A DNA stretch of 64,000 nt, taken from assembly GCA_020161615.1 (NCBI GenBank), contig JAIUPD010000006.1, forward strand, positions 186,001-250,000, read 5' to 3'. The translations under genes were made by a program, and so were the position numbers. The DNA comes from Pseudomonadota bacterium (GTDB lineage: Bacteria > Pseudomonadota > Alphaproteobacteria > Rhodobacterales > Rhodobacteraceae). Shown here piece after piece: positions 33,907-60,739 of the stretch. Position 1 is the stretch's first letter; the number at the start of each line of letters is the position of its first letter. Under the pieces are notes generated by a model that ran no database searches, was not told the origin of the DNA, and saw only the letters and a list, made by a program, of their open reading frames with translations.

Positions 33907-35079
33907 TCAGAACGGTTCGGTCTGCGGCACCCAGGCGCCGCCCTCGATCCGGTCGATGGAGACCAGCTCGGGCATCGCGTGGTTGTTCTCGAACCCGGCC
34001 TCGGCATAGGTGGTGAAGTCCGAATGCCGTGTCTGCCGCGCGCCTTCGGTGAAGCTCTCGGCGGTCAGATCGGCGCCAGCGGCCTCCAGCGAGGCGAGGA
34101 ACCATTTCGTATAAGAATAGGCGTTGGCCGCATTCTCGTCGGGGATGTCGCCATAGGCCGCCTGATAGGCATCCATGAAGGCCCGCGCACCGGGATCGGT
34201 GGTATCGGCGCTGTGCAGACGCCAGCCCCCGACGCCATAGAGCCCTTCGGTATCCGCCCCGCCCAGCCGCGCCACCACGGTCGAACGGCCCGGGATGGCG
34301 GTAAGCACGCGCACATCGTCCCAGCCCAGGCGCTTGACCTCGGCCATGACGCCGACCGTTTCACGCGTGATGGTCGCGGCGACGATCGTGTCGACATTGG
34401 CGGCGCGCATCCGTGCCACCTGGCTGGAGAAGTCGATGTCGCCCGGCCGGTAGGCAGCGGTCGCGGCCTCGGTCAGGCCGGCGGCTTCCAGCGCCGGGGT
34501 GACGCCGGCATGGATCAGGTCGCCGAAGGGGCCTTCCATATAGATCCCGCCCAGCCGCTCGACCCCCCATTCGGGCAGCAGCCGCGCCAGCGCCCGGTTC
34601 ATGGTGGTATTGTAGTTCTGCACCGTGGTGAACAGCAGGTCCGATCCCCCCGCGACCTGATGCATGACCGAGGAGGCGGCCCAGGGCGCGAAGACCACGG
34701 TTCCCGCCTGTACCGCCTGGCCGATGGTCGCGGCATTGGTGCCCGAGCCGAACGGGTTGAGCAGCGCGAAAACCTCGTCCGAACGGATGAGTTTCTGTAC
34801 CGCCCGCACGGCGAGCTGCGGCTGCGAGCCGTTGTCCTCGACAATCAGCCGGATCTGGCGGCCATGCACGCCCCCCGCCGCATTGGCCTCGGCCAGTGCC
34901 AACTCTGTGGCGTTGCGCAGCGCGGGCATCCCGGCCGCGGCCGGTCCCGACAGGTCGAGATGCGTACCGATGACGATCTCGTCCGAATGAACCCCCGCCG
35001 CGCGGGCCGGCCGCAGGCTTGCGCCCAGCGTCAGCGTGGCCGCGCTGCCGGCCAACATTTGCCGTCTGTTCAGTTTCAT
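33907..35079 (-). CDS. livK: Branched-chain-amino-acid-type ABC transporter binding protein
   Basis: 390 residues from the ATG at 35079 (AGGGAGG upstream). The N terminus has a twin-arginine-like NRRQMLAGSAA before a signal peptide of about 27 residues. The body is a type I periplasmic-binding fold: DEIVIGTHLDLSGPAA, ANAAGGVHGRQIRLIVED. LivK-type proteins bind amino acids but also aromatic or short carboxylic acids. It ends an operon of catabolic genes and belongs with the LivHMGF genes, from which it is separated by an acyl-CoA ligase. Confidence 0.92.
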   Translation of the reverse strand: MKLNRRQMLAGSAATLTLGASLRPARAAGVHSDEIVIGTHLDLSGPAAAGMPALRNATELALAEANAAGGVHGRQIRLIVEDNGSQPQLAVRAVQKLIRSDEVFALLNPFGSGTNAATIGQAVQAGTVVFAPWAASSVMHQVAGGSDLLFTTVQNYNTTMNRALARLLPEWGVERLGGIYMEGPFGDLIHAGVTPALEAAGLTEAATAAYRPGDIDFSSQVARMRAANVDTIVAATITRETVGVMAEVKRLGWDDVRVLTAIPGRSTVVARLGGADTEGLYGVGGWRLHSADTTDPGARAFMDAYQAAYGDIPDENAANAYSYTKWFLASLEAAGADLTAESFTEGARQTRHSDFTTYAEAGFENNHAMPELVSIDRIEGGAWVPQTEPF

Positions 35080-35145
35080 AGAAGCCTCCCTTGCTTGTTT
35101 GGCGGACGTGACACTAGACATGCTCCCCACCCCGTTCCTGCCGCC

Positions 35146-36987
35146 TCAGGAGGGGTACATGCCGTCGATAAGGCGTGCGTATTTCTGTGCGATGACCTTG
35201 CGCTTGAGCTTCATGGTCGGCGTCAGCTCCTCGTCCTCGGCCGTCAGCAACTGGTCGATGATGCGGAAATCCTTGATCTGCTCGACCCGGGCGAGGCGCG
35301 GATTGACGGCCTCGATCTCGGCCCGGATCAGCTGGACGACGCCCTCGGCCCGCGTGAGGCTGGCAAAATCCGTGTAGGGAATCGCCTGTTCCTGCGCGCA
35401 GCGGCTGACGTGTTCCAGGTCGATCATCACCAGCGCGGTGAGGTATCGCCGCCCCTCGCCGATCACCACCGCATCGGTGATGAAGGGGCTGAACTTCAGC
35501 TGGCTCTCGATCTGCGTCGGCGTGATGTTCTTGCCGCCCGCGGTGATGATGATGTCCTTGATCCGGTCGCGGATCGCCAGATAGCCGTCCGGGCTGACCT
35601 CGCCGCAGTCGCCGGTCCTGAGCCAGCCGCCGGGCAGGATCGTCTCGGCCGTCTTGTCGGCCTGCCGCCAGTAGCCGGCAAAGACATTGGGGCCACGGAT
35701 CTGGATCTCGCCCTCCTCGGCGATGCGGATCTCGGTGCCCTTGGCGGCGATTCCCGCCCAGCCCAGCCGGATCGCGCCCGAGGGGGTGGAGGCCGCGAAA
35801 CCGGCGGTTTCGGTCATCCCGAAAGCCTCGCGCAGCTCGATCCCGATGGAGAGGAACCAGCGGATCAGGTCGGGCGGCACCGGCGCGGCGCCGGTCAGCG
35901 CGCTGCGGCAGTTCTGAAGCCCTAGGAACACCTTGATGTTGCGAAAGGCCAGCCGGTTCAGCAGCGCATCGACGGGCCCGGGCCGCGGCGGGGTTGTGCC
36001 GGCAAGCCGCGCCTCAACCCCTGCCCGGCCGCGTTTCAGCGCCGTGCCATAGGTCCAGCGGGCGGGCGCCGTGGCGTCGCGCAGGAACAGCTCGACCGCC
36101 GAATGCATCTTCTCCCAAAAGCGCGGCGGGGCGAAAACCACGTGGGGCGCGACCTCGCGCAGGTCGTTCTGCACGGTGCCCGCGTTTTCGGGGAAATGCA
36201 CGATCAGCCCCAGGGCCAAGGGGTTGAAGACCGAGGCCATGCGCTCGGCGATATGGCAAAGCGGCAGAAAACTCAGCGATTTGTCGCCGGGTTTGGCGTC
36301 CAGATATTCGGTCGCCTTCTGCATCTGGAAGATGGTGTTGGCGTTCGAGATCATCGCCCCCTTGGGCGCCCCGGTGGTCCCCGACGTATAGACCAGAAAC
36401 GCCAGATCCGCCGAACGGCCCGCGTCGATTGCTGCCTCGAACTCGGCCGCGCGGGTCTGGGCCAGCGTCATCCCCCGGTCCAGAAGGTCGGTCCAGAACA
36501 GCACATCAGGATCGGCCAGCTTGCGCAGCCCCTCGGGGTCGATCACCACGATCTTGACCAGCGCGGGGCATTCCGCCCTCACCGCCAGCGCCTTTTCCAG
36601 CTGCTCCTGGTTCTCGACGATCAGCACCCGGGTTTCGCTGTCTTGCAGAATGTAGCGCATCTGTTCGGGCGAGGCGGTGGGATAGATGCCGTTGCCGACG
36701 ATCCCCATCGCCTGCGCGCCGATATCGGCGATCACCCATTCCGGCCGGTTCTCGGCCAGGACCGCCACGACCTCGCCCCGCCGGACGCCCAGATCGGCCA
36801 GCGCCAGACCCAGCGCCCGGGCCTGCGCGTAATATTCCGCCCAGCTCAGGCTCTGCCAGAGGCCGCGCCGCTTGTGGCGCAGGGCGGGCATCGCCGCCCA
36901 TTCCTGCGCCCTGGCGCGAAAGACGCCGGCCGGGGTTGCGTGGCCCAGAAAAGTCAGCGGCTGCTCCATCATCGCGTTCATCGCCAT
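35146..36987 (-). CDS. AMP-dependent acyl-CoA ligase (long-chain-type)
   Basis: 613 residues. The ANL superfamily signatures are present: YTSGTTGAPKGAMISN (about 200-215), FGMTETAGF, WLRTGDCGE and the C-terminal lysine region. The N-terminal RHKRRGLWQSLSWAEYY and long length match the FACL/AFD class I long-chain group, but such enzymes in catabolic clusters also activate aromatic or isoprenoid acids. The start overlaps the LivF gene by 10 bases; the next gene downstream is LivK. In context it would activate the imported or cleaved acid. Confidence 0.92.
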   Translation of the reverse strand: MAMNAMMEQPLTFLGHATPAGVFRARAQEWAAMPALRHKRRGLWQSLSWAEYYAQARALGLALADLGVRRGEVVAVLAENRPEWVIADIGAQAMGIVGNGIYPTASPEQMRYILQDSETRVLIVENQEQLEKALAVRAECPALVKIVVIDPEGLRKLADPDVLFWTDLLDRGMTLAQTRAAEFEAAIDAGRSADLAFLVYTSGTTGAPKGAMISNANTIFQMQKATEYLDAKPGDKSLSFLPLCHIAERMASVFNPLALGLIVHFPENAGTVQNDLREVAPHVVFAPPRFWEKMHSAVELFLRDATAPARWTYGTALKRGRAGVEARLAGTTPPRPGPVDALLNRLAFRNIKVFLGLQNCRSALTGAAPVPPDLIRWFLSIGIELREAFGMTETAGFAASTPSGAIRLGWAGIAAKGTEIRIAEEGEIQIRGPNVFAGYWRQADKTAETILPGGWLRTGDCGEVSPDGYLAIRDRIKDIIITAGGKNITPTQIESQLKFSPFITDAVVIGEGRRYLTALVMIDLEHVSRCAQEQAIPYTDFASLTRAEGVVQLIRAEIEAVNPRLARVEQIKDFRIIDQLLTAEDEELTPTMKLKRKVIAQKYARLIDGMYPS

Positions 36988-37748
36988 GTCCTCCGGCGCT
37001 TCCAGCGTTGGGCGGTGCCGCTCAGCCCCTCGGCCTCGCGCCCGCCCAGATAGGCCTCGCGCACATCCTCCTTGCGCGACAGCGCGGCGCAGGTATCGGC
37101 GGCGACGATGCGGCCCAGTTCCATGATATAGCCGTCGTCGCCATGCTTGAGCGCGACGGCGGCGTTCTGTTCGACCACCAGAACGGCGGTGCCGGTCTCG
37201 TCCCGGATGCGGCGGATGATGCCGAAGATCTCCTGCACCAGACGGGGCGACAGGCCGAGGCTGGGCTCGTCCAGCATGAGGAGTTTCGGCGCGGAAAGAT
37301 AGGCGCGTCCAATGGCGACCATCTGTTGTTCGCCGCCCGAAAGCAGCCCGGCATGCTGGGCGTCGCGTTCCTTGAGGCGGGGAAACCAGCTCTGGACCTT
37401 CTCCAGATCGCGGGCCACCGCGTCGCGGTCGCGCCGGGCATAGGCGCCCATCATCAGATTGTCGCGCACCGTCAGGAACGGGTAGATCTGCCGCCCCTCG
37501 GGCACCAGCACGAGGCCGCGCCGGGCGACTTCATCGGCGTCGAGGCCCTGCACCTCGGCGCCCTGAAACAGCGCCTTGCCCTTGAACGGGTCGATGACAC
37601 CGGCGAGCGTGTTGAGAAGCGTGGTCTTCCCCGCCCCGTTGGCACCCAGGACGGCGACGATCCGCCCCTCGGCCACAGTCAGGTTCACCCCCTTCATCGC
37701 CGCGATGGGGCCGTACCAGGTTTCCAGATTCTGTACGTCCAGCAGCAT
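36978..37748 (-). CDS. livF: Liv-type ABC transporter ATP-binding protein (LivF)
   Basis: 256 residues from the ATG at 37748, one base after the LivG stop. It has Walker A GANGAGKT (35-42), the signature LSGGEQQM and Walker B LLMLDEPS, and the LivF-specific pattern VPEGRQIYPFLTVRDNL. The C terminus is extended by an arginine-rich stretch (about 20 residues) overlapping the ligase gene. It energises the LivHM channel. Confidence 0.95.
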   Translation of the reverse strand: MLLDVQNLETWYGPIAAMKGVNLTVAEGRIVAVLGANGAGKTTLLNTLAGVIDPFKGKALFQGAEVQGLDADEVARRGLVLVPEGRQIYPFLTVRDNLMMGAYARRDRDAVARDLEKVQSWFPRLKERDAQHAGLLSGGEQQMVAIGRAYLSAPKLLMLDEPSLGLSPRLVQEIFGIIRRIRDETGTAVLVVEQNAAVALKHGDDGYIMELGRIVAADTCAALSRKEDVREAYLGGREAEGLSGTAQRWKRRRTWR

Positions 37749-37749
37749 G

Positions 37750-38511
37750 TTACGTCCCCAGATAGGCGGCGATGACATCGGGATGGCCCTGCACCTTGGC
37801 GGGCGTGCCCTCGGCCAGCATCTTGCCCTGCGCCATGCAGACCACCCGGTCGGCCACGGCCGAGACCAGCGACATGTCGTGTTCGATCATCACCACGGTG
37901 ATGCCGAGTTCGGTGCGGATATCCTCGATCCAGAAAGCCAGATCGCGGGTTTCCTCGGGATTGAGGCCCGAGGCAGGCTCATCGAGGAACAGCAGTTCCG
38001 GTTCGGCGCAAAGCGCGCGGCCCAGCTCCACCACCTTGCGCACGCCATAGGGCAGGCCCGCGACCCGGGCGTTGCGCCAGGGCGAGAGGTCGAGGAATTC
38101 GATCACCTCCTCGGCCTTTGCGCGGTGGCTTTCTTCCAGTCTTGTCAGCGCGGGGGTGCGCAGGATCTGCTGCCACCAGCGCCCCGAACCGAAGCGGTGA
38201 CGGCCCAGTAGCAGGTTGTCGAGGACGGTGGCCGCGTCGAACAGTTCGATGTTCTGAAAGGTCCGGGCGATCCCCAGATGCGCGATCCGGGCGCGCGGCA
38301 TCTGGGCAATGTCCTGCCCCTTGAAGCGGATCCGCCCGCGGCGCGCGGTGAAAACGCGCGTCACCAGGTTGAGCATCGAGGTCTTGCCGGCGCCATTGGG
38401 GCCGATCACCGCAAGCACCTCGCCCTTGTCGACCCGCAGCGACAGGCCGCCGATGGCGACCAGCCCGCCGAAGGCCAGTTCCACCTCGTCGAGTTCCAGG
38501 AGCGCGGTCAT
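37750..38511 (-). CDS. livG: Liv-type ABC transporter ATP-binding protein (LivG)
   Basis: 253 residues from the ATG at 38511, overlapping the LivM stop by 4 bases. Walker A is GPNGAGKT (about 37-44), the Q-loop region has IARTFQNIELF (LivG hallmark), and Walker B is LLFLDEPA. The signature motif is replaced by LPYGVRKVVEL, the usual LivG form. It acts with LivF, LivH and LivM. Confidence 0.95.
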   Translation of the reverse strand: MTALLELDEVELAFGGLVAIGGLSLRVDKGEVLAVIGPNGAGKTSMLNLVTRVFTARRGRIRFKGQDIAQMPRARIAHLGIARTFQNIELFDAATVLDNLLLGRHRFGSGRWWQQILRTPALTRLEESHRAKAEEVIEFLDLSPWRNARVAGLPYGVRKVVELGRALCAEPELLFLDEPASGLNPEETRDLAFWIEDIRTELGITVVMIEHDMSLVSAVADRVVCMAQGKMLAEGTPAKVQGHPDVIAAYLGT

Positions 38512-39584
38512 CGGTTTCTCTCCGAACGCATGTAGCTTTTCTGGCGGCGGAAGGTGTCGCGGCGGTACAGCGGGAAGCTCTCCAGCAGCGCGCGCAGCTT
38601 CAGCCAGCGACCGTTCAGGCCCATCGGCTCGAAGAGGACGAAGAAGGCCAGCACCGCGCCCGCGACGAAGATCTCCATTCCCGATTGGCGGGCCATGGCC
38701 TCCGGCAACAGCGCCTTCAGCGCCGCGACGGCGCGCGGCAGTAGGCTGATCAGGATCGCGCCCAGAATGGCGCCGCGCAGGCTGCCCATGCCGCCGATCA
38801 CCACCATCAGCACCAGATCCAGCGACAGAAGCAGGGTGAAGGCGTCGGGCGTCAGATAGCCGATGTGATGGGCCATCAGCGCGCCCGCCAGCCCGGTGAC
38901 CCCGGCCGACAGGCCGAAGGCGCCGACCTTGACCCGCTTGACCGGAATGCCGAGCGCATAGGCCGCAGCCTCGGAATCCCGGACGCCGACGAAGGCCCGC
39001 CCGATGCCCGAGCGCATCAGGTTCAGAAGCGCGAGCAGCACCGCCAGCGCGAAGAACAGGCAGACGTAATAGAAGGCGCGCGGCGAGGACAGCGACAGGC
39101 CCAGCAGCTCTGGATTGGGCACCAGCATGCCCATGAAGCCGCCGGTCACCCCGCGCCAGAGGCCGATCACCTGCTCGACGACGATGGAAAAGGCCAGCGT
39201 CACCATGGCGAGGTACAGGCCCGAGACGCGGATCGCCGGGATCCCGACGACCAGCCCTGCCCCGGCCGAGATTAGCGCGGCCAGGGGCAGCGACAGGGCA
39301 AAGGGCAGACCCTGCGTCATCAGCCAGGCATGGGCATAGGCGCCGATGGCCACGAAACTCGCATGCCCCAGGCTCACCTGCCCGGTGAAGCCGGTCAGCA
39401 CCATCAGCCCCATGGCGGCGATGCACAGGATCAGCACATAGCCCAGTTCCCCCAGCAGATAGGTCGAGGCGAAGAAGGGCACCGCCAGCAAGAGCGCGAT
39501 CAGCAGGCCATAGAGGACGCGGTCGCTGGTATGGGGCAGCAGCGCGAAACCCTGTCGGTATGCGGTGTGGTAATCGAAGCGCAT
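38508..39584 (-). CDS. livM: Liv-type ABC transporter permease (LivM)
   Basis: 358 residues with about ten membrane segments. LivM features are LTGFTGQVSLGHASFVAIGAYA (in two parts) and the EAA-like loop GRAFVGVRDSEAAAYALGI, followed by MVVIGGMGSLRGAILGA. The C-terminal 35 residues are hydrophilic. Its start is 3 bases from the LivH stop. Confidence 0.95.
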   Translation of the reverse strand: MRFDYHTAYRQGFALLPHTSDRVLYGLLIALLLAVPFFASTYLLGELGYVLILCIAAMGLMVLTGFTGQVSLGHASFVAIGAYAHAWLMTQGLPFALSLPLAALISAGAGLVVGIPAIRVSGLYLAMVTLAFSIVVEQVIGLWRGVTGGFMGMLVPNPELLGLSLSSPRAFYYVCLFFALAVLLALLNLMRSGIGRAFVGVRDSEAAAYALGIPVKRVKVGAFGLSAGVTGLAGALMAHHIGYLTPDAFTLLLSLDLVLMVVIGGMGSLRGAILGAILISLLPRAVAALKALLPEAMARQSGMEIFVAGAVLAFFVLFEPMGLNGRWLKLRALLESFPLYRRDTFRRQKSYMRSERNR

Positions 39585-39587: not shown

Positions 39588-40472
39588 TCAGACCCTCCGC
39601 CCATGGGCTTCGCCCATGATCCCGGTCGGCCGCAGGATCAGCACCAGGATCAGCACCAGATAGGCGGCGATGTCCTTGACGCCATGCATCAGATAGACGC
39701 CCGCATATTGCTCGATCAGCCCGATCAGGATGCCGCCGATCACCGCGCCCGGCAGGCTGCCGAAGCCGCCCAGCACGATCGCCGCCAGCGCCTTCAGGGT
39801 AATCAGCCACAGCGAGGTATCGACCAGCGTGATCGGCGCCAGGAAAATCCCGGCGATGGCGGCGGTGACCCCGGCCAGCGCCCAGACCAGCGAATTCACC
39901 CGCTTCACCCGCACCCCGTTCAGATGCGCCGCCAGCTGGTTCTGGCTGGCCGCCTGCATGGCGATGCCAAGCCGCGTGTAACGGAAAAAGAGCCACAGCA
40001 GCGCCGCGATCAGCAGGACCGAGCCCATGATGACCAGCGACAGATCCGCGACGGTTACACCCAGAATCTCGGTCGAGGCGCCGGTCCAGGGCGTCGCATA
40101 GCTTTGCGATTCCGTGCCGAAGCCCATGCTGACCAGCCCCCGCATCATGAAAGCGATGGCGATGGTCAGCATCACGCCCGCGAATTGCGGCTGACCGACG
40201 ATCCGCCGCACCACCAGCGCGTCCAGCCCATAGGCCAGCACCCCCATGGCCAGCGCCACCAGCGGCAGCACCAGCCAGAAGGACAGCCCCGCCTTGTCGA
40301 TCAGCGCCCAGGCGCTGAAAGCCGCGACCACCAGCAGGTCGCCATGGGCGAAGTTCAGCACCTCGGTCGCCTTGTGGATCAGCACGATCCCCAGCGCGAC
40401 CAGCGCATAGATCGACCCCACGGCGATGCCATTGGCGGTAAGTTGGGCAAAAAGTTCCAGATGGCTGCTCAT
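39588..40472 (-). CDS. livH: Liv-type ABC transporter permease (LivH)
   Basis: 294 residues from the ATG at 40472, overlapping the HxlR-type regulator stop by 4 bases. LivH landmarks are GSIYALVALGIVLIHKATEVL with NFAHGDLL, the loop GIAMQAASQNQLAAHLNGV, and IVLGGFGSLPGAVIGG. It forms the channel with LivM. The first gene of the Liv block, it is directly behind the regulator gene. Confidence 0.95.
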   Translation of the reverse strand: MSSHLELFAQLTANGIAVGSIYALVALGIVLIHKATEVLNFAHGDLLVVAAFSAWALIDKAGLSFWLVLPLVALAMGVLAYGLDALVVRRIVGQPQFAGVMLTIAIAFMMRGLVSMGFGTESQSYATPWTGASTEILGVTVADLSLVIMGSVLLIAALLWLFFRYTRLGIAMQAASQNQLAAHLNGVRVKRVNSLVWALAGVTAAIAGIFLAPITLVDTSLWLITLKALAAIVLGGFGSLPGAVIGGILIGLIEQYAGVYLMHGVKDIAAYLVLILVLILRPTGIMGEAHGRRV

Positions 40473-41404
40473 GTTCCCTGCCCTGTTTCGAAGGTCACGT
40501 CCCAGGCCTGCAGCCGCTGGTGGCAATGGCCGCAGGTCGCGCGCGGCACGAAAGGCTTGCCGCAAGATTTGTGATAGGGGCGGATCGAGCTCGGCTCGTG
40601 AAAGAGCTGCTCGCTCGCCCAGGTCGAGAGCAGCGTGATATAGGGGAACAGCGCGCGGCTTGCGGGCGTCAGCAGATAGACCCGGCGCCGCCCGTCCTCG
40701 CGGTCCTGCTCAACCGTCAGAAGCCCCGCCTCGACCATGGCCGCCAGCCTGCGGCTGAGCAGAGGCGCGCTGATCCTGAGGACATAGGCCATCTGGTCGA
40801 AATGCCGGCAGCCCAGCACTTGCGCGGCGACGATCATCAGCGACCAGCGGTCGAGCCTGAGCGCCAGATGCGACATCGCCCCGTCCTTGACGGTGACCTT
40901 GGGCGCCCGGTCCGGCCCGCCGGTGTCATGCGGCAGATGCGGGTTCGGCTTCAGCCGCAATTCCAGCTCGTGCATCGTCGCGGGCTCGCCGCAATGCTCG
41001 CAGACCAGTTGCGGCAGGAAGCGGTGACCGCAGGTCTTGTGGATCAGCCGCGAGGGCAGCGCGATGCGGTTCTCGCCGAAGCGATGCTCCCAATCCCAGG
41101 TCATCAGCGTGGCTTCATAGATCGCCATCCCCTTGCGGGTCAGGTGATAGGCGTAGCGCTCGGGCCGCTCCTGATAGAGCCGGGGCCGGAGCATATCCAT
41201 CGCCACCAGCGCCCGAAGCCGGTCCGACAGGGTGCGGCGGGGGATGTTCAGCCGGGTCTGGAAATCGTCGAAACGCTTCACCCCGGTGAAGGCGCCCATC
41301 AGGATCTGCATGGTCCAGCGGTCGCCGATCAGTTTCAGCGCATGGCTGAGAACCGAGCTGGACAGCGCGTCGCGCAGCAGGTCGAGGTCGGGGGCCTCGC
41401 TCAC
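40469..41404 (-). CDS. Tandem HxlR-type regulator with two zinc-ribbon-like tails
   Basis: 311 residues containing the same unit twice. Unit 1 has the HxlR winged helix (LKLIGDRWTMQILMGAF, RRTLSDRLRAL) followed by HKTCGHRFLPQ and CEHCGEP. Unit 2 has the analogous LRLDRWSLMIVAAQVL, APLLSRRLAAM, then YHKSCGKPF and CGHCHQ. Each tail has four Cys/His that could bind zinc. Ordinary HxlR proteins are about 110-130 residues with one domain. A paralogue with the same organisation is at 59705. It overlaps the thiolase stop and the LivH start by 4 bases each. A sensor of an aromatic or CoA-linked effector is likely, but that is inference. Confidence 0.85.
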   Translation of the reverse strand: MSEAPDLDLLRDALSSSVLSHALKLIGDRWTMQILMGAFTGVKRFDDFQTRLNIPRRTLSDRLRALVAMDMLRPRLYQERPERYAYHLTRKGMAIYEATLMTWDWEHRFGENRIALPSRLIHKTCGHRFLPQLVCEHCGEPATMHELELRLKPNPHLPHDTGGPDRAPKVTVKDGAMSHLALRLDRWSLMIVAAQVLGCRHFDQMAYVLRISAPLLSRRLAAMVEAGLLTVEQDREDGRRRVYLLTPASRALFPYITLLSTWASEQLFHEPSSIRPYHKSCGKPFVPRATCGHCHQRLQAWDVTFETGQGT

Positions 41405-51700: not shown

Positions 51701-51701
51701 G

Positions 51702-52278: not shown

Positions 52279-53271
52279 TCAGCGGGCGCGGATGTCTTCG
52301 AGCTTGGCGGTATAGGCCTCGATCAGGCCTTCGCTGGCCGAAGCGGCGACCCGGTCGATCACCGGCTGCACGCGGCGCGCGATCTCGGCCTCGTCCTCGG
52401 CCGAGGGGACGACCAGCGTGTGATCCGGGCTTTCGGCCCAGGCGGCGACATTGGCCTCGATGGCGGGCGCGTAGCTTTCCACCTGCCGGTCGACGATGAA
52501 CTGGCCCGATTGCGCCAGCAATTCGTGGACACGGGGCGGCAGACTGTCATAGACGCTGCGGTTCATCAGGATCGAGAAGACCAGCACGCCCAGGCTGCTC
52601 TCGTAATGGTGCGGCGCCACATCGGCCACGCGGAAGGTGCGCGCGACCGAGGCATCGGTCATCGCCCCGTCGATCAGCCCGCGGTCGATGGCCTCGGCCA
52701 TCTCGCCCGCGCCCATCGCCTGCGGCACGCCACCCAGCGCCTCGATCACCTCGGTCTGGATCTGACCGGCGACGCGGAAGCGCTGCCCCTCGATATCGGC
52801 GACGCTGCCGATCGGTTCGCGCGAATGCAGCATGTAGGCGCCCGAGGTATACATGGCGACCACGTAATAATCCTCGTACCCCCTCAGCGCGCCCTCCTGA
52901 TAGAGTTCCAGCGCCGCCTGCGAGCCCTCGGCGGTGTTGCGCGCGAAGCCCGGCAGTTCGAAGACGTCGAAATCGGGATAGACGCCGGGCGTGTAGCTGG
53001 GCACGGTCAGGCCGATATCGGCCACGCCATCCGCCACCATCTGCGCCTGGGCCAGCGGGTTGCGGCCCAGCGTGCCGCCCGCATAGAGCGTGATCTGCAC
53101 ATCATCGGCGGCGGCCTGTTCGTTGAACCAGTCCACCCAGGGCTGATAGACATGCTGCACCGTCGGCGAGGCCGCGGGCACAAAGACCGCGAAGGCCAGA
53201 TCGCGGGCCGAGGCCCCGGTGGCAAAGGTCAGGGCCAGTCCGGCGGCAAGGCCGGTGAGTGTCGTCTTCAT
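52279..53271 (-). CDS. TRAP transporter substrate-binding protein (DctP)
   Basis: 330 residues from the ATG at 53271 (GGGAGGAGATCACC upstream); longer open frames are not credible. The signal peptide is about 22 residues, ending ASAR. Body features are VYQPWVDWFNEQ, GGTLGRNPLAQAQMVADG and the EGQRFRVAGQIQTEVIEALGG (in parts) arginine region. A carboxylated substrate such as an aromatic or isoprenoid acid would fit. Confidence 0.93.
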   Translation of the reverse strand: MKTTLTGLAAGLALTFATGASARDLAFAVFVPAASPTVQHVYQPWVDWFNEQAAADDVQITLYAGGTLGRNPLAQAQMVADGVADIGLTVPSYTPGVYPDFDVFELPGFARNTAEGSQAALELYQEGALRGYEDYYVVAMYTSGAYMLHSREPIGSVADIEGQRFRVAGQIQTEVIEALGGVPQAMGAGEMAEAIDRGLIDGAMTDASVARTFRVADVAPHHYESSLGVLVFSILMNRSVYDSLPPRVHELLAQSGQFIVDRQVESYAPAIEANVAAWAESPDHTLVVPSAEDEAEIARRVQPVIDRVAASASEGLIEAYTAKLEDIRAR

Positions 53272-53330
53272 GGTGATCTCCTCCCAGGATCGTGAAGAAA
53301 TGTCCGGGTCTTGGGCCCGGTCGGGTCGTC

Positions 53331-54566
53331 TCAGCCGCGCCCCACGACGAAGGCGGCGATGGTGGTGGTCGAGCCGCCGATGTTCAGCAGACCGACGCGC
53401 TTGGCGCCCTCGACCTGGCAGTCGCCGGCGCGTCCGGTCACCTGCTTGTAGCCGTCGAGCATCATCCGCACGCCGGTCGCACCGACCGGATGGCCAAGGC
53501 CGATGAGCCCGCCCGAGGGGTTGATGGGCAGCCGTCCGCCGGGGGCGATCACCCCCTCCTCGACGGCCTTCCAGCTCTCGCCGGGGGCGGTGATCTCGTA
53601 GCTGTCGATGGCCGCGTATTCGGTCATGGCGAAGCAATCATGCGTTTCGATGGCATCGAGCTGAAACGGGCTGTCGATGCCGGCGCGGGCGAAACTCTCG
53701 CGGATCGCCTTGTTCACATGCGGCAGCACGAAGCGGTCGTTGCGGCTTTCGGCCAGTTTCTCGGCCAGCATCATCGGCGCGGTGCGGTGGCCCCAGCCGT
53801 CGATCTTCGCCAGATCGGCAAGGGTCAGGCCGCGCTCCTCGGCATATTGGGCCGCCCGGGCGGCCGAGGCAAGGAAGACCACCGCCGCGCCATCCGTGAC
53901 CTGCCCGCAATCGTTGCGCCGGACGCGGCCCTCGATCACCGGGTTGGCCTGGTCATCCTCGGTGAAGGACCGGTCGTTGAAGTCCCATTTGCGGGTCTGG
54001 GCATAGGGGTTGCGCTTGCCGTTCGCGTAGTTGATCCGCGCGATCTCGCCCAGATGGGCATAGTCGATGCGGCCGAATTTCTCGGAATAGGCTTCGATCA
54101 GATCGGCGAAGGCGGCAGGCCAGACATAGGTCGCGTCCTGCCATTCGCGCCCGGCCCAGGCCGCGGCGCCCAGGTGTTCCGCCGCCCGCTGGCCCGGCAC
54201 GTTGCGCATGTATTCGACGCCCAGCACCGCCACCAGATCGTAGCGCCCCGCCTCGATCTCGGCCGCCGCCGCCAGCATCGCCATGGAGCCCGAGGCACAG
54301 GCGGCCTCGTGCCGCTGGGTCGGGATGCCCGACAGGTCGGGGTGAAGCGAGGCGATCATGCCGCCCAATTGACCCTGCCCGCAGAACAATTCGGCGACGA
54401 AATTGCCGACATGCACCGCTTGCAGGTCGCGGGGCTCCAGCCGGGTGTTCTCCAGCCCCTCGAACAGCACCTCGCGCATCATCGCGTCGATGCCCAAGCC
54501 CTCGCGCGACCAGTTACGGGCGAAGTCGCTTTGCGCGCCTCCCAGGATATAGACGGGTTCAGGCAT
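53331..54566 (-). CDS. SCP2-type (lipid-transfer) thiolase-fold enzyme, copy 2
   Basis: 411 residues. The nucleophile is C90 in HEAACASGSM; the histidine motifs are THDCFAMTEY and GHPVGATGVRM. The N terminus ILGGAQSDFARNW and the NYANGKRNPYAQTRKWDF region align with copy 1 (NYANARKNPLAQTRGWEF), so the two modules share an ancestral gene. As with copy 1, no DUF35 partner is present. It overlaps the ligase gene by 8 bases. Confidence 0.88.
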   Translation of the reverse strand: MPEPVYILGGAQSDFARNWSREGLGIDAMMREVLFEGLENTRLEPRDLQAVHVGNFVAELFCGQGQLGGMIASLHPDLSGIPTQRHEAACASGSMAMLAAAAEIEAGRYDLVAVLGVEYMRNVPGQRAAEHLGAAAWAGREWQDATYVWPAAFADLIEAYSEKFGRIDYAHLGEIARINYANGKRNPYAQTRKWDFNDRSFTEDDQANPVIEGRVRRNDCGQVTDGAAVVFLASAARAAQYAEERGLTLADLAKIDGWGHRTAPMMLAEKLAESRNDRFVLPHVNKAIRESFARAGIDSPFQLDAIETHDCFAMTEYAAIDSYEITAPGESWKAVEEGVIAPGGRLPINPSGGLIGLGHPVGATGVRMMLDGYKQVTGRAGDCQVEGAKRVGLLNIGGSTTTIAAFVVGRG

Positions 54567-56247
54567 GGATCTCTCCGGTTTTCTGGGATTCGGCCAGGCG
54601 CCTGGTCAGCGCCTTGCGGTCGAGCTTTGCCAAGGGGGTGCGCGGCAGGGCAGGCAGGAATTCCAGCCGCTCGGGCCATTTGAACTTGGCCAGCCCCACC
54701 CGGTCGCAGAAGTCCGCAACCTCGGCGAGGGTGAGACCGCGGCCGGGTTCCATCACGGCGAAAAGGCAGACCTTCTCGCCCATGCGGGGATCGGCATAGG
54801 CCGCGACCGCCACCTCACGCACCCCGGGCAGGGCAGAGAGGGCGTTGTCCAGCTCCACTGGCGCGATCTTCATCCCGCCGCGGACGATCAATTCCCGGGC
54901 GCGGGCGTGGAAGCGGATCAGCCCGCCGCAGTCCGAAATCTGGAACAGGTCGCCCGAGGGGAAATAGCCGTCTGCGGTGAATTTTGACCGGTCATAGCCC
55001 TTGCGCGAGAAATAGCCGGGCATCATGGCCGGACCGCGCAGCTGCATCTCGCCCAGGCCCCCGGGTTCGGTGACGGCCGCGCCCGTCGCGGGATCGACCA
55101 GCCGGAAGGTGCCGCCATTGGCGGTGCGGCTGGTGGCGTCCCAGCCCTCGTCCCCGTCGCGGGGAAAGAAGCGGGCCCGGGCGCGGGGATCGGGCACGCG
55201 GCTGGCGGCCGAGCACATCTGCGCCCCCTCGTTCGAGCCGAAGAAATTCACCACCGGGATGGCGAAACGCTCCTCGAAGAAGACGAAGACCTCCGGGTCC
55301 GGCGGGGCCGAGCCGGTGCCGAGCGCCACCAGCCGGTGCAGCGCGGCGCGCAGATCGGGATCGTCCGCCTGATCGCGCAGATAGGTCAACAGCGTCGGCG
55401 CCACCATCGTATAGGCGATGTCCTCGGTCTTCAGTTGCTGCAGGAAGACGTTCAGATCGAAGGGGTGGTGAAGGAAGAGCGCGCCGGCGGTTCGCATCCA
55501 GCACATCATCAGCCCGCCGACCGCGGCCGCGTTCACGAAGGGAAAGGGCGCGAGGATATTGGCGCCGTCGGGCAGATCCAGCAGCCGCCAGGCGCCCAGG
55601 GACGAGGCCATGAGGTTGTTGTGCGTCTTCGGCACCGCCTTTGGCACGCCCTCGGTGCCCGAGGTCCAGAAGACCGCGAAGGGCGCATCGGCGTCGATGC
55701 TGACCGGTGCCAGCGGCGCGGGCGCGGGACCGTCGAGCGAGACCATGCCGGCGGGCAGATCGCCGCCGATGCCAAGCCGCCGCACGCTGTCGGGCAGCGC
55801 GGCCAGACGATCGGGATCGAAGGGCTGGCCCTTGAAATGGCCGATCGAGATGAAGGCGTCGAAGCCCGCGACCCGGCTCAGGTCTGCCAGTTCCGCGGCG
55901 CGATAGGCCATCGACACCGGGCTCAACACCCCGCCGATCCGGCTGATGGCAAGATAGAGCAGCACGGTTTCGGCGATATTGGGCAGCTGGGTCGCGATCA
56001 GCGATCCCTGCCCCAGACCCTGCGCCTGCAGATGCGCCGCATAGCGCGCGACCTCGGCCTCCATCTGGGCATAGGTCAGGCGCTTCGGCGTCCCTTCGAA
56101 CAGCGTTTCGCGGTTCGGCGCATCGACCAGCGCCAGCCGGTCGGGCACCCGCGCCACTGTCGCCGCGAACATCTGCGGCAGGGTGACATCGGCCCAATGC
56201 CCCTCGGCGCGGAAGCGCGTGTAATCTTCGGGCGGGAACAGACTCAT
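54559..56247 (-). CDS. AMP-dependent acyl-CoA ligase (cyclohexanecarboxylate/benzoate-ligase-like)
   Basis: 562 residues. ANL superfamily features are present, but the P-loop reads WTSGTEGVPKAVPKTHNN, not the common TSGTTGxPKG. This variant resembles EntE/aryl-acid AMP ligases (PK..PRTHNDY). Later motifs are FGSNEGAQ, SGDLFQISDCGG and RGGMKIAP. The substrate is therefore probably an aryl or alicyclic acid. It differs clearly from the long-chain-type ligase of module A. Start overlaps the NPD gene by 4 bases. Confidence 0.9.
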   Translation of the reverse strand: MSLFPPEDYTRFRAEGHWADVTLPQMFAATVARVPDRLALVDAPNRETLFEGTPKRLTYAQMEAEVARYAAHLQAQGLGQGSLIATQLPNIAETVLLYLAISRIGGVLSPVSMAYRAAELADLSRVAGFDAFISIGHFKGQPFDPDRLAALPDSVRRLGIGGDLPAGMVSLDGPAPAPLAPVSIDADAPFAVFWTSGTEGVPKAVPKTHNNLMASSLGAWRLLDLPDGANILAPFPFVNAAAVGGLMMCWMRTAGALFLHHPFDLNVFLQQLKTEDIAYTMVAPTLLTYLRDQADDPDLRAALHRLVALGTGSAPPDPEVFVFFEERFAIPVVNFFGSNEGAQMCSAASRVPDPRARARFFPRDGDEGWDATSRTANGGTFRLVDPATGAAVTEPGGLGEMQLRGPAMMPGYFSRKGYDRSKFTADGYFPSGDLFQISDCGGLIRFHARARELIVRGGMKIAPVELDNALSALPGVREVAVAAYADPRMGEKVCLFAVMEPGRGLTLAEVADFCDRVGLAKFKWPERLEFLPALPRTPLAKLDRKALTRRLAESQKTGEIHA

Positions 56248-57185
56248 GCGCAGAGCCTCCGGGCGCGGGCCTTGGCGGCCTCGTATTCCCGGGCCAGCCG
56301 GTCGACGATGGCGGCGGCGGGCTCGATCCGCTCGATCTTGCCGACCCCCTGCCCCGCGCCCCAGATGCCGGACCAGGGCTTGACGGCCTCGTTCTGGCGC
56401 CCGGTGAAGTTGAGTTTCGCCACCTTGAACTCAAGCTCGGCCGGGTCCAGCCCCTTGGCCACCATCGAGGGTTTCAGCATCGAGGCGCGGGCACCGGTAA
56501 AGGCGCGGGTAACCAGCAGGTCGGTCGCGTCCGAGGTCACGCACATCGCCCGGTATTCGGGGCTGGCGAGGTTCTCCTCGGCCACCAGAAAGGCGGTCCC
56601 GATATAGCCGAAATCCGCGCCCAGCACCTGTGCGGCCAGAATCGCCTCGCCGGTGTTGATCGCGCCGGCCAAGGCAATCGGCCCGTCGAAGAACTGGCGC
56701 ACCCGCTCGACAAAGACCAGCGGGCTCAGCTCGCCCGTATGCCCGCCCGCGCCGGAACAGACCAGCACCAGACCATCGGCCCCGGCCTCGACCGCTTTTT
56801 TCGCCAGCGCGACCGAGATGACATCGGCAAAGACCAGCCCGCCATAGGCATGGACCGTGGGCAGCACGGGCTTGGGGCTGCCGAGCGCGGTGATCACCAC
56901 CGGCGGCTGATGGATCGCCACCTGCTCCAGATCGCCCTGCAACCGGGGCGAAGTGGAATGGGTCACGAGGTTCAAGGCCCAGGGTGCATCCGCCTCGGTC
57001 AGCTGCGCGCGGATCTGGGCCATCCAGTCGCCCAGTTCGGCACTGGTCCGCAGGTTGGGCGCGGGAAAACTGCCGACGATGCCCGCCTTGCAGCATGCCA
57101 CCACCAGATCCGGCCCCGAAACCAGGAACATCGGCGCCGCAAAGGCGGGCAACCGCAAGGCTGCCAGCCGGTCTTTCGGAGTCAT
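56244..57185 (-). CDS. Nitronate monooxygenase-like FMN protein (NPD family), copy 2
   Basis: 313 residues. N terminus LPAFAAPMFLVSGPDLVVAC, then GADGLVLVCSGAGGHTG and LAGAINTGEAILAAQVLGADF (FMN phosphate loop). Compared with copy 1 the active-site loop FLVAEENLASPEYRAM is conserved (FIAAEESLAPAAYKDM). The pairing of this flavoprotein with an SCP2-type thiolase and a CoA ligase in both modules argues for a role on CoA esters. Start overlaps the hydrolase gene by 4 bases. Confidence 0.86.
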   Translation of the reverse strand: MTPKDRLAALRLPAFAAPMFLVSGPDLVVACCKAGIVGSFPAPNLRTSAELGDWMAQIRAQLTEADAPWALNLVTHSTSPRLQGDLEQVAIHQPPVVITALGSPKPVLPTVHAYGGLVFADVISVALAKKAVEAGADGLVLVCSGAGGHTGELSPLVFVERVRQFFDGPIALAGAINTGEAILAAQVLGADFGYIGTAFLVAEENLASPEYRAMCVTSDATDLLVTRAFTGARASMLKPSMVAKGLDPAELEFKVAKLNFTGRQNEAVKPWSGIWGAGQGVGKIERIEPAAAIVDRLAREYEAAKARARRLCA

Positions 57186-57916
57186 CGGGCGTCTTCCTTC
57201 GTGTTCGTCGCGATCCGGGTCAGAAATTCGGCCAGATGCCCGGCCACTATCTGCGGCGCCTCCAGCACCGCCAGATGACCGGTGCCGGGAAGCGCGATGC
57301 AGCGCCCCTCGGGCACCGCCTCGGCCAGGGCACGCCCGGCCTCCAGCGGGGTCACGCCATCCTCGGTGCCGCAGAGCACCAGCAGCGGACAGGTCAGTCC
57401 GCCCAGGGCCGCACGCTGATCGGGGCGCGCGGCCAGGGCTTTCTGATGCTCGGTGAACCGCGCCACGCCCTGCGCCAGCGCCATGCGGACGATCCGCTCT
57501 CGCAGGGCCTTTTCCGACCGGCGGGCGGGGGCGACAAGGCTGTCGGCCAGGCTGGCGGCCAGCGCCTCCATCCCCTCGCGCGCGGCCCAGCGGGCGACCT
57601 TGCCGCGCATCGCGGCGGCATCGGGCGTGTCGGCGGCGGCATTGGTGCCGATCAGCACCAGACCCGCCAGCTTGCCGGGATGGGTAAGGGCCACGCGCAG
57701 CGCCAGATAGCTGCCCATCGACATGCCCAGAAGAACCGCGCCATCGGGGATATCGGCCGCCAGCGACCGGGCCAGCGCGGCGAAATCATCACCCCCGGGC
57801 AGCGGCAGGACCCGCATGTCGACCGGCGCCCCCTCCTGCTGCGGTAGGACGGCGCGCATCGGGTCGAAAACTTCGGGCTCGCAGAGCAGACCCGGCAGGC
57901 AGACCAGCGTCGTCAT
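57182..57916 (-). CDS. Alpha/beta-fold hydrolase
   Basis: 244 residues, a compact alpha/beta hydrolase. The triad is S in LGMSMGSYL (about residue 85), D in CGTEDGVTP and H in GTGHLAV near the C terminus. Related proteins hydrolyse enol-lactones, esters or ring-fission products. It is first in the leftward module B operon and divergent from the third oxygenase gene. Confidence 0.88.
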   Translation of the reverse strand: MTTLVCLPGLLCEPEVFDPMRAVLPQQEGAPVDMRVLPLPGGDDFAALARSLAADIPDGAVLLGMSMGSYLALRVALTHPGKLAGLVLIGTNAAADTPDAAAMRGKVARWAAREGMEALAASLADSLVAPARRSEKALRERIVRMALAQGVARFTEHQKALAARPDQRAALGGLTCPLLVLCGTEDGVTPLEAGRALAEAVPEGRCIALPGTGHLAVLEAPQIVAGHLAEFLTRIATNTKEDAR

Positions 57917-57994: not shown

Positions 57995-58096
57995 GATGTT
58001 TTGCTTGATGAAACATCTATCGTCGGGATTTCCGTGTATTCTCAAGCATGCGCCACGATCTGGACGGGCATTCAGGGGCCTAGCCAAGCGTTTCGC

Positions 58097-58154: not shown

Positions 58155-59708
58155 ATGTCCCTCGACCCGCATCACGACCATGACGAGACCCCGCTGGCGG
58201 TGACGCGGGCGAATGTCCGCATGTATGCGCCCGACGGCACGCCGCCGCCCGATGCGCCGGACTGGATCTGGCATTACGACCATCCGTATCTGCATGGCGG
58301 ATTCGCGCCCTCGGATATCGAGTACGAAGCCGAGGATCTGGAGGTCGAGGGCGAGATCCCGGCGGATCTGTGCGGCGCCTATGTGATGAACGGCCCCTCG
58401 CAGCGCTTCGAGCCGGTCAATTCCAAGTACCATTACTATGATGGCGACGCGCAGCTTCGGGCGATCTATTTCCGGGACGGCAGGGCCAGCTTTCGCCAGC
58501 GCTACCTGCGCTCGGGCGCTTTTCTGGTCGAGGAGATGGCGGGCCGCAGCATCTGGCCGGGCCTCGCCGGGCCCTATGATTTCCGCCTGCCCGGCTCGCC
58601 GATCAAGGATGTCTCGAACACTGATGTCATCTTCTACAACGGCAGCCTTCTGTCGCTGTGGTACATGGCGGGCGATCCCTATACGGTCGATCCGCTGACC
58701 TTGGAAACCACCGGGCGCGAGACGCTGGGCGGCAAGCTGCACCATTCGGTTTCGGCGCATTCGAAGACCGATCCCTTCTCGAAGGAACTCTTCTTCTTCA
58801 ATTATCAGGACGAGCCGCCCTACATGTCCTACGGCATGGCGGATGCCACGGGGAACCTGGTCTTCGACATCGACATCGACCTCGCCGGTCCCCGCTCGCC
58901 CCACGACATGGGGCTGACGCAGAATTACGCGATCCTGCATGACCTGCCGTTTTATCACGACGTCGATCTGCTGAAGAAGCACAAGCGCCGGGTGATGGGC
59001 TTCCATCGCGATCAACCCGCCCGCTTCGGGCTGATCGACCGCTACGGCCGCTCGGCAAAGGTGCAGTGGTTCGAGGCCGAACCTTGCTACATCCTCCATA
59101 TCGCCAACGCCTGGGAGGAAGGCGCCTGGGTCCATATGATCGGCTGTCGGCAGGAAGACCCGATGCCGGTCAAGGACCCGGCCGACCATCACCTGGCCTC
59201 GATGATGGCCTACAGGCGGCGCTCGCATGTGCTTTACCGCTGGTCCTTCAACACGCAGACGGGCGAGACGCGCGAAGGGCCGATCGACGACCGCAACACC
59301 GAGTTCCCGACCGTCAACGCGCATTTCATGGGCCGCAAGACGCGCTATTCCTTCAACCAGATCATCCCGATGCCGCAGGAGGGCTCGCTGGAAGGGCGCT
59401 GCCAGACCTTCAACGGGCTGCTGCGCTACGATCTGGAGACGGGCGCGACGCAGCGCTACGATTACGGTGAAGGCGTCTATGGCTCCGAGGCGCCGGTCGC
59501 CCCGGCGCAGGGCAGCGGGCGCGACGGGGCCGAGGGGCGGGCCTATCCGGTCAGCTTCATCACCGATACCAACGACTGGTCCTCGGCCTGCCTGATCTTC
59601 GACGCCGAAGACATCACCAAACCCATCGCCAAGGTGAAGATCCCGCGCCGCATCTCGATCGGATTCCACACCACCTGGGTGGATAGCGCGGATATCTGGA
59701 ACCTGTGA
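58155..59708 (+). CDS. Carotenoid-oxygenase-family dioxygenase (stilbene-cleavage type), copy 3
   Basis: 517 residues from the ATG at 58155 (GGAGG six bases upstream; an ATG at 58143 lies before the ribosome site). The iron ligands are H202 (VSAHSKTD), H250 (SPHDMGLT), H315 (ILHIANAWEE) and H505 (IGFHTTW). A histidine/aspartate-rich N terminus (PHHDHDE) is unlike copies 1 and 2. It has a partner HxlR-type regulator overlapping its stop and is the only rightward gene of module B's enzyme set. Confidence 0.93.
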   Translation: MSLDPHHDHDETPLAVTRANVRMYAPDGTPPPDAPDWIWHYDHPYLHGGFAPSDIEYEAEDLEVEGEIPADLCGAYVMNGPSQRFEPVNSKYHYYDGDAQLRAIYFRDGRASFRQRYLRSGAFLVEEMAGRSIWPGLAGPYDFRLPGSPIKDVSNTDVIFYNGSLLSLWYMAGDPYTVDPLTLETTGRETLGGKLHHSVSAHSKTDPFSKELFFFNYQDEPPYMSYGMADATGNLVFDIDIDLAGPRSPHDMGLTQNYAILHDLPFYHDVDLLKKHKRRVMGFHRDQPARFGLIDRYGRSAKVQWFEAEPCYILHIANAWEEGAWVHMIGCRQEDPMPVKDPADHHLASMMAYRRRSHVLYRWSFNTQTGETREGPIDDRNTEFPTVNAHFMGRKTRYSFNQIIPMPQEGSLEGRCQTFNGLLRYDLETGATQRYDYGEGVYGSEAPVAPAQGSGRDGAEGRAYPVSFITDTNDWSSACLIFDAEDITKPIAKVKIPRRISIGFHTTWVDSADIWNL

Positions 59709-60739
59709 CGGGCCGTCGCCCCGATGGACAGAGAGGACCGGGCATGCTTGGGTCGCGCAAGGAAGATGACCGCATGCCCGATCCGATGTCCCAGTTGATG
59801 CCCGACGCCCCTGCCCTGCCCGAAGGCCCGCCCGCGACCTCGTTGCGGCGGGCCCTGCGCATTCTCTCTGATCCCTGGACCATGCTGATCCTCAAGGAGG
59901 CCTTCAACGGCACCCGCCGGTTCAGCGCCTTCCAGCGGGCGCTGAACATCCCCAAGCAGACGCTCTCGCTGCGGCTGACGGCGCTGTGCCACGAGCAGAT
60001 GCTCTACCGCCGGTTTCCGGCGCCGCAATCGGGGGGAACGCAGGCCGCGCCCGAATACGCGCCGACCGCCAAGACCTTCGATCTGGCCGATGCGATGTAT
60101 GCGATCTGGCTCTGGCACCGGGCCAACCCGGGGATCGAGGACGTGTTGCCTTTCGATATCGTGCACAAGAGCTGCGGTCATCTGCTGGAGGCCGATTATT
60201 GCTGCACCGCCTGCGGCGAGCCCGCGCATTCCGCCAGCGTCACCATCCAGCGCAGCCAGCCCGAGCAGGTCGAGACCGAGCCCCGCCCCCGCCTCGCCCG
60301 GCGCAATGATGCCAGCTTCACCGCTACCTCCTCGCAGTCGGGCGGGATGGTCGCGGCCTCGCTGGTGGGCGACCTGCCCTGCAACGAGATCCTGTTCCTG
60401 CTATTCCAGGGACCGCGCCATCCGCTGGCCATCACGCAGGAGCTGGCCCTGGGCGCGCCGGTGGTGCGCGACCGGCTGGACAAGCTGAAGGCGCTGAACC
60501 TGGTGCGGGAAGAGGTGCAGGGGCGGCGACTGGTCTATCACCTGCTGCCCCGGGCCGAGGGGTTCTTTCCGCTTCTGCTGGCGATCGCCGAGTGGGGGGA
60601 TCGCTGGTGCAACGACGGCCAGCCCCCCCCCGACCCGCGCCTCCATGCCTGCGGGGCGATCCTGCGCGGCCGCTACCGCTGCCGGCATTGCCGGGAATGG
60701 GTCAGCCGGGACCAGCTTGAACTGCGCTTCCATGCGTGA
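59705..60739 (+). CDS. Tandem HxlR-type regulator with two zinc-ribbon-like tails, copy 2
   Basis: 344 residues from the GTG that overlaps the oxygenase stop (GTGA); an ATG at 59744 with AGAGGA upstream gives 331 residues and is an equally good start. Unit 1: LRILSDPWTMLILKEAF, KQTLSLRLTAL, tail HKSCGHLLEADYCCTACGEP. Unit 2: LVGDLPCNEILFLLF, APVVRDRLDKL, tail HACGAILRGRYRCRHCREW. So both halves end in a Cys/His ribbon, as in the module A regulator. It probably governs the CCD3/hydrolase divergent promoters. Confidence 0.85.
   Translation: MTGRRPDGQRGPGMLGSRKEDDRMPDPMSQLMPDAPALPEGPPATSLRRALRILSDPWTMLILKEAFNGTRRFSAFQRALNIPKQTLSLRLTALCHEQMLYRRFPAPQSGGTQAAPEYAPTAKTFDLADAMYAIWLWHRANPGIEDVLPFDIVHKSCGHLLEADYCCTACGEPAHSASVTIQRSQPEQVETEPRPRLARRNDASFTATSSQSGGMVAASLVGDLPCNEILFLLFQGPRHPLAITQELALGAPVVRDRLDKLKALNLVREEVQGRRLVYHLLPRAEGFFPLLLAIAEWGDRWCNDGQPPPDPRLHACGAILRGRYRCRHCREWVSRDQLELRFHA

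Follow-up and report, generated by a model that had tools for sequence, protein, structure and literature searches.

Among described enzymes of the carotenoid cleavage oxygenase (CCO) family, lignostilbene dioxygenases bind the 4-hydroxyl of their substrate through Tyr101 and Lys134, and the second-sphere acidic residues of LSD4, Glu135, Glu353 and Glu418, are reported as conserved (PMC8191317, in the parts of the article available to us). In the available main text of two papers on lignin-dimer pathways (PMC12997858; PMC11323797) the word "thiolase" occurs 0 times, and a feruloyl-CoA ligase is found in the former. Here, we analyzed a window of 64,000 nucleotides from a Rhodobacteraceae bacterium (assembly GCA_020161615.1, contig JAIUPD010000006.1, positions 186,001 to 250,000 of the forward strand), in which three CCO genes (CCO1, CCO2 and CCO3) lie in and beside two adjacent gene blocks, A and B, among genes typical of CoA-ester catabolism. 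On balance, we incline to read these as two catabolic blocks of one conserved kind, which would import a conjugated alkene acid, activate it to its CoA ester, cleave it with a CCO and shorten the remaining chain.

The linkage of these families is conserved. From 98 relatives found with CCO1 as the query we retained the best 80, and in 27 of these CCO1 was flanked by 8 kb or more in each direction. Partners were counted within 8 kb of CCO1, with identity cut-offs of 50% for the SCP2-type thiolase, 40% for NPD, PaaN, lipocalin and LivH, 37% for the classical thiolase, 30% for the ligases and 25% for HxlR. Across the 27 flanked loci, HxlR was present in 22, the classical thiolase in 20 and SCP2 and NPD in 18 each, followed by PaaN (10), lipocalin (9), LivH (9) and any of three ligases (8). 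As controls, 25 genes from 1-33 kb of the window were counted in the same loci, and the best of them reached 0/27 at 50%, 1/27 at 40% and 37%, and 7/27 at 30% and 25% identity. SCP2, NPD, the classical thiolase, PaaN, lipocalin, LivH and HxlR all exceed the best control, HxlR being retained at 37% identity in 9/27 loci compared with at most one for the controls. Six Sphingomonadales-type loci (L048, L052, L053, L055, L056, L057) carry NPD, CCO1, ligase, SCP2, thiolase, PaaN and lipocalin in this order on one strand. An earlier note on this DNA, made by a model from the sequence, had proposed the pairing of such oxygenases with SCP2-type thiolase and NPD genes, and the neighborhood search bears it out, with CCO, SCP2-type thiolase, NPD and HxlR linked in Alpha- and Betaproteobacteria. 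Additionally, CCO1 and SCP2 occur together in five actinobacterial loci (L065, L066, L068, L069, L070). In Caulobacteraceae loci such as L033, L036 and L041, the surroundings of CCO1 repeatedly include SnoaL/LEH-like proteins, short-chain dehydrogenases and TonB receptors. Elsewhere in the genome under study, contig C14 (L086:7843-14837) bears a further CCO; its neighbors are a thiolase and an aldehyde dehydrogenase, together with a ligase and an alpha/beta hydrolase in divergent orientation.

Whole-genome comparisons point in the same direction. In a sample of 398 Pseudomonadota genomes, the PRK06289 thiolase was found in 13, all of which (13/13) also have a CCO, compared with 59/398 overall (P = 5e-12; 3e-11 if the window's genome is left out). 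A second sample, at class level (289 genomes), had the thiolase in six, five of them with a CCO at an E-value of 1e-70 or better against 46/289 overall (P = 0.00045, rising to 0.0023 once the window's genome is excluded). All these P values assume independence between genomes, although relatives are not independent, and some genomes had only part of their candidates scored. The two genes are also physically close, the CCO-thiolase distance being at most 11 kb, a limit chosen after the distances were seen, in 11 of the 13 phylum genomes (largest 10.8 kb) and at most 4 kb in seven of the 13, while simple random placement would expect about 0.2 genomes with so close a pair. For the window's genome all five CCOs were used in the distance analysis, and the family sample around G275, a genome of the class sample, comprised 3 genomes only.

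As the earlier note had stated, all three CCOs carry the four iron histidines. They match PF03055 with 417.6 (CCO2), 412.7 (CCO1) and 371.1 (CCO3) bits against a cut-off of 27, and the genome holds five CCOs in total, three of which are inside the window. The nearest named relative of CCO1, among the best 80 of 98 relatives, is that of Pararhodobacter aggregans (locus L008, 97% identical). By overall similarity only, the nearest solved sequence for each of CCO1-3 is a carotenoid 9,10-dioxygenase (PDB 9m6z, 9m3e, 9luz), which we take to be of the plant CCD1 type. The active site was studied in an alignment that joined CCO1-3 to the sequences of four solved enzymes and to 100 locus rows (98 from the 80 fetched loci and two for the genome's other CCOs), a count that omits five rows repeating the window's own CCOs (L001, L002, L005). 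Residue columns were picked by motif in LsdA and not from structure, and are numbered according to the available parts of PMC8191317. Realignment with L-INS-i, which is not independent of the first alignment, gave identical columns. The iron histidines are kept throughout the 100 rows, save one row gapped at the last of them, and positions 353 and 418 are Glu in CCO1-3 and in 100/100 rows. The Phe59 column, set by offset, is Phe in 97/101 rows, LsdA included, and Tyr in CCO3. Neither Tyr101 nor Lys134 is present in CCO1-3 or in any of the 100 rows; the former column holds Leu (85), Ile (10), Thr (4) and Trp (1), the latter Tyr (89), Phe (5), Trp (2), Val (2) and Ser (2).

Because this pair is absent, 4-hydroxystilbenes and propenylphenols are disfavored as substrates, which leaves an apocarotenoid-like acid or some other non-phenolic alkene acid as the candidate. 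The stilbene and propenylphenol parts of the earlier note's substrate model thereby lose weight, its apocarotenoid-like part being retained as a candidate. The same evidence bears on the alternative that lignin-type aromatic alkenes (stilbenes, propenylphenols, hydroxycinnamate-like acids) are what the blocks degrade, with the CCO cutting the side-chain C=C to give aromatic aldehydes that are then oxidized and activated. Its appeal lies in the CCO fold, in a Rhodobacteraceae CCO which, according to the available parts of PMC6700365, converts isoeugenol and 4-vinylguaiacol to vanillin (a likeness by description, not by sequence), in the feruloyl-CoA ligase mentioned above, and in the SnoaL-like neighbors of the Caulobacteraceae loci, tied by guess only to the lignin-dimer lyases of PMC11323797 (available parts). 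Apart from the missing pair, one of these SnoaL-like neighbors is without a clear PDB relative, and all three CCOs stay below the lignostilbene dioxygenase cut-off of NF053778 (800 bits), with 252.5 (CCO2), 215 (CCO1) and 215.4 (CCO3). They equally fail to reach the 675 bits of NF052295 (8'-apo-carotenoid 13,14-cleaving dioxygenase), with 245.9, 216.4 and 217.5 bits in the same order. We also built a quick maximum-likelihood tree of 107 rows with four reference enzymes only, placing the root by choice on LsdA and NOV1; CCD1 and VP14 split from a 101-row set holding CCO1-3 (SH-aLRT 98). CCO1-3 are thus set apart from LsdA/NOV1 as well as from CCD1/VP14, within the limits of a tree for which the program warned of long branches, two suspect joins (one being the genome's other CCO pair) and one row of odd composition. 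Taken together, we judge the aromatic alternative unlikely.

The order given in the earlier note, namely cleavage, aldehyde oxidation, CoA activation and shortening, is broadly compatible with the protein families. From these we infer the reactions, their sequence, the role of the regulator and the substrate. An amphipathic acid with conjugated C=C bonds would be imported by the Liv ABC system in block A and by the TRAP system in block B, and the AMP-forming ligases would turn it into a CoA ester. The carotenoid-oxygenase-type enzyme would split a double bond, leaving carbonyls; the PaaN_2-type dehydrogenase would oxidize the aldehyde product and the FabK-like NPD protein may reduce leftover conjugated double bonds. 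Subsequently, the classical thiolase would take off C2 units and the SCP2-type thiolase alpha-methyl-branched (C3) units, with the lipocalin possibly holding a hydrophobic ligand and the duplicated HxlR regulator presumably controlling the block. SCP2-type thiolases accept 2-methyl-3-oxoacyl-CoA and alpha-methyl-branched chains. Because of this use and of the nearest solved relatives of the CCOs, our first guess for the substrate, to which we give moderate weight, is an apocarotenoid or another isoprenoid polyene acid. A non-isoprenoid, non-phenolic conjugated acid (e.g., a polyene or dienoic acid) would leave the rest of the pathway unchanged; it would suit the transporter and ligase families, and no isoprenoid is indicated by the data, but the nearest solved relatives, by overall similarity only, are carotenoid-cleaving enzymes, and we hold such a substrate to be rather unlikely. 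Tentatively, then, the isoprenoid proposal can be extended to a widespread CoA-dependent route for apocarotenoid-like (isoprenoid polyene) acids, run by CCOs of a subfamily without the phenol-binding pair and, should the alignment register be right, without the second-sphere Glu described as conserved in carotenoid-cleaving dioxygenases, and with the PRK06289 SCP2-type thiolase as its alpha-methyl-branched thiolase.

Several results weigh against the catabolic reading. In the neighborhood counts, the ligases do not exceed the best control (8/27 vs. 7/27 at 30% identity). At the level of whole genomes, CCO and thiolase are 170 kb apart in G533 and on different contigs in G725, both of the phylum sample, and within the class sample the pair is close together in only two of the six thiolase genomes (the window's own and G275); it lies on different contigs in G120, G184 and G218, whose assemblies have about 120 to 640 contigs, while G296 has the thiolase and no CCO at the 1e-70 limit. 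In a sample of the genome's own family (120 genomes), CCO was found in three and PRK06289 above its cut-off in one, the window's own, leaving G014 and G029 with CCO only. Regarding the enzymes, the Glu135 column shows Gln in CCO1, Arg in CCO2 and Met in CCO3, with Glu in 3/100 rows (two distant ones and L065), in a region where a one-residue insertion leaves the register uncertain; phmmer alignments, in other registers, put no acid opposite Glu135 in the window's CCOs either. Because the alignment finds no Glu135, with that uncertainty of register, catalysis by CCO1-3 should be regarded as unproven. Among the block genes scanned with Pfam, neither an enoyl-CoA hydratase nor a 3-hydroxyacyl-CoA dehydrogenase family was reported, and a complete beta-oxidation would therefore have to draw on enzymes encoded outside the blocks. 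Finally, in our judgment, C40 carotenoids would hardly enter via Liv or TRAP.

The earlier note had named oxygenases without the CoA genes as the finding that would speak against it. Such oxygenases do occur, in 46 of the 59 CCO genomes of the phylum sample, in G014 and G029 and in seven of the 27 flanked loci, where SCP2 at 50% identity is found nowhere in the locus, so that this objection applies in part. The genomes and loci without a thiolase could also be explained if the CCO and the CoA genes belonged to separate pathways sharing merely an inducer or a location. Consistent with that, the L084-type actinobacterial CCO1 lies among genes of other kinds, no CoA-catabolism partner being present among the ten neighbors scanned. 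This explanation would have to account, however, for the excess of close pairs over random placement where both genes occur, and for the identical gene run of the six Sphingomonadales-type loci, and we consider it improbable.

Both blocks are encoded on the minus strand, block A between 49813 and 33907 and block B between 57916 and 50039, while CCO3 and the second HxlR gene run the opposite way from 58155. Protein families were assigned from Pfam, and for ten proteins from NCBIfam in addition (Table 1). Profile scans of the block genes recovered every gene named in the earlier note at its position, and both blocks were found to hold the combination it had described (SCP2-type thiolase, NPD, AMP-forming ligase, a transporter, which is Liv ABC in A and TRAP in B by Pfam family, and a duplicated HxlR nearby), together with genes it had not listed, namely the classical thiolase, the lipocalin, the ABM protein and the hydrolase.

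Table 1. Features of blocks A and B and of the divergent CCO3 pair, in window coordinates.
Feature	Coordinates	Strand	Basis
Liv-type periplasmic binding protein	33907..35130	-	PF13458, 2.4e-64
AMP-forming acyl-CoA ligase, module A	35146..36987	-	PF00501, 2e-70; NCBIfam FadD11 407 bits, below cut-off 950
LivF ATPase (start estimated)	36978..37748	-	PF00005, scanned as 36978-37778
LivG ATPase	37750..38511	-	PF00005, PF12399
LivM permease	38508..39584	-	PF02653, 3.1e-40
LivH permease (start estimated)	39588..40472	-	PF02653, 8.1e-33, scanned as 39588-40565
HxlR1, duplicated HxlR with putative zinc-ribbon-like unit	40469..41404	-	PF01638, 2 stretches; conserved His/Cys in 36 aligned rows; AlphaFold2 pLDDT 88.1
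Classical thiolase ThlA (start estimated)	41401..42585	-	PF00108, PF02803, scanned as 41401-42630
SCP2-type thiolase a (SCP2a)	42611..43819	-	NF004936 572.2 bits, cut-off 375; CAS, HDCF, GHP stretches
NPD/FabK-like protein a (NPDa)	43816..44751	-	PF03060; best PDB chains FabK-type
PaaN_2-type aldehyde dehydrogenase	44738..46414	-	TIGR02288 581.4 bits, cut-off 578.75
Lipocalin-like protein	46414..46824	-	PF13924; AlphaFold2 pLDDT 95.9; best Foldseek match lipocalin 4gzv
CCO2	46824..48308	-	PF03055, 1.1e-124
CCO1	48320..49813	-	PF03055, 3.3e-123
Hairpin between the two blocks, without T run	49993..50030	-	17-nt arms, 94% complementary
ABM-family small protein	50039..50377	-	PF03992, 1.6e-09
TRAP DctM	50387..51739	-	PF06808
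TRAP DctQ	51702..52214	-	PF04290
TRAP DctP (start estimated)	52279..53316	-	PF03480, 3.6e-35, scanned as 52279-53637
SCP2-type thiolase b (SCP2b)	53331..54566	-	NF004936 616 bits, cut-off 375
AMP-forming acyl-CoA ligase, module B	54559..56247	-	PF00501, 5.1e-54
NPD/FabK-like protein b (NPDb)	56244..57185	-	PF03060, 9e-26
Alpha/beta hydrolase	57182..57916	-	PF00561, 1.1e-14
CCO3	58155..59708	+	PF03055, 1.3e-110, scanned from 58143; GGAGG precedes ATG at 58155
HxlR2, second duplicated HxlR with putative zinc-ribbon-like unit	59705..60739	+	PF01638, 1 stretch; C-x2-C pairs

Gaps between genes are short, 17 of the 21 being from -14 to +15 bp and the remaining four 64, -38, 225 and 28 bp (some starts are estimated). 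A single operon spanning both blocks is not favored, because they are separated by 225 bp that include a strong hairpin; the 68 nt holding this hairpin have a predicted fold of -45.5 kcal/mol (z = -4.08). In favor of the single operon, a pattern scan of 49700-50450 gave 0 terminators and 0 promoters, and in some Comamonadaceae loci (L018, L020, L027) genes from the two blocks follow one another without a break. An apparent LivM-LivG fusion proved to be an artefact of a long open reading frame (ORF), and separate scans resolve two proteins. At 57932-58143, two TCTAGA sites bracket the divergent region, and the sequences flanking them match in part as inverted copies (arms of 11 nt, 91% complementary); the counterparts of the two sites in L008 are one TCTAGA and one TCTAGG. 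The notion of TCTAGA as a rare operator was rejected, with three occurrences in the window compared with 2.14 expected. Beside block A, a second TRAP set (binding protein and fused DctQ-DctM), a short-chain dehydrogenase and a cyclase-family protein lie at 28548-33600, while an IclR-type regulator, a 4HBT thioesterase and another AMP-forming ligase are found next to HxlR2 (60813-63502).

Concerning the other proteins of the blocks, the CAS, HDCF and GHP stretches were read in both SCP2-type thiolases, SCP2b being aligned to solved thiolase-like chains. We take the cysteine of CAS to be the nucleophile and HDCF and GHP to be further thiolase motifs; the possibility that these thiolases are without a nucleophile was rejected, as the CAS cysteine is present. 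The closest solved chains of NPDa are FabK-type enoyl reductases, and against the FabK model TIGR03151 this protein, the only NPD scanned, reaches 112 bits, far below the cut-off of 453.1. The PaaN_2-type dehydrogenase, which passes TIGR02288 narrowly, is the sole one above the cut-off in this genome. Its membership in the genome's phenylacetate set was rejected, the PaaA/PaaC-family genes being on another contig, C15. The best match of the lipocalin model (17 rows) has an E-value of 8.9e-5 and a TM-score of about 0.6, followed by retinoid and fatty-acid binders at E-values of about 0.01, and no ligand is identified thereby. In an alignment of HxlR1 with HxlR2 and 34 of 44 locus rows, H122, C125, C135, C138, H278, C291 and C294 do not vary and C281 is almost invariant, although H278 has no match in HxlR2 in the two-row alignment. 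These His and Cys residues may form a zinc-ribbon-like unit with a putative metal site. The HxlR1 model best matches the single HxlR-type proteins PA1374 and PA1607.

To judge from their proteins, modules A and B are not twins, with identities of 51% between the SCP2-type thiolases, 55% between the NPDs, 30% between the HxlRs (32% in their two-row alignment) and 25% over 326 residues between the ligases. They do not look like a recent duplication, because SCP2a and SCP2b fall on opposite sides of a quick, midpoint-rooted tree of 49 rows. The SCP2a side comprises Pararhodobacter, Comamonadaceae, Actinomycetota and one row each of Phenylobacterium, Acetobacteraceae and Myxococcales, while the SCP2b side comprises Caulobacterales, Sphingomonadales and some others, including a second row from the same Myxococcales locus. 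Five Pararhodobacter-type loci (L006, L007, L008, L010, L011) extend 10 kb upstream of CCO1; of these, only L008 shows the module B ligase, SCP2b and hydrolase in that stretch, and L011 has a DctM-like gene at 32%. Between the hydrolase and the module B ligase of L008, the gene listing has no NPDb; a stretch near 3086 resembles it, and the ORF filter may hide it.

The conserved linkage ties the PRK06289 thiolase family, which has no assigned role here, to alkene-cleaving oxygenases, and the gene set named is a testable candidate for a catabolic substrate. It also draws attention to CCOs of a subfamily with an active site unlike those studied so far in the phenol-binding pair and perhaps in the second-sphere Glu. 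Among the matches listed in a search of titles and abstract openings of a collection of openly licensed PMC papers, no description of the pairing of a CCO with this thiolase was found. Like the lignostilbene dioxygenase pathways of Sphingobium SYK-6 and Novosphingobium, in which, according to the available parts of the sources (PMC8191317; PMC12997858; PMC11323797), a four-His iron CCO cuts a C=C bond in catabolism and aldehyde oxidation comes after, block A combines a CCO with an aldehyde dehydrogenase; unlike them, CCO1-3 are without Tyr101/Lys134 and have thiolase, NPD and HxlR genes as neighbors. With the carotenoid 9,10-dioxygenases, CCO1-3 share the four iron histidines, but they are placed on a separate tree branch, and Glu135, present in the dioxygenase, was not found in them by alignment, in the region of uncertain register. 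The dehydrogenase resembles PaaN_2 in passing TIGR02288 and differs in not being located beside the genome's PaaA/PaaC-family genes. Lastly, SCP2a and SCP2b pass the cut-off of the PRK06289 acetyl-CoA acetyltransferase family (NF004936), to which the linkage with CCOs is an addition of the present work; the families themselves are known, and their pairing would appear to be the new element.

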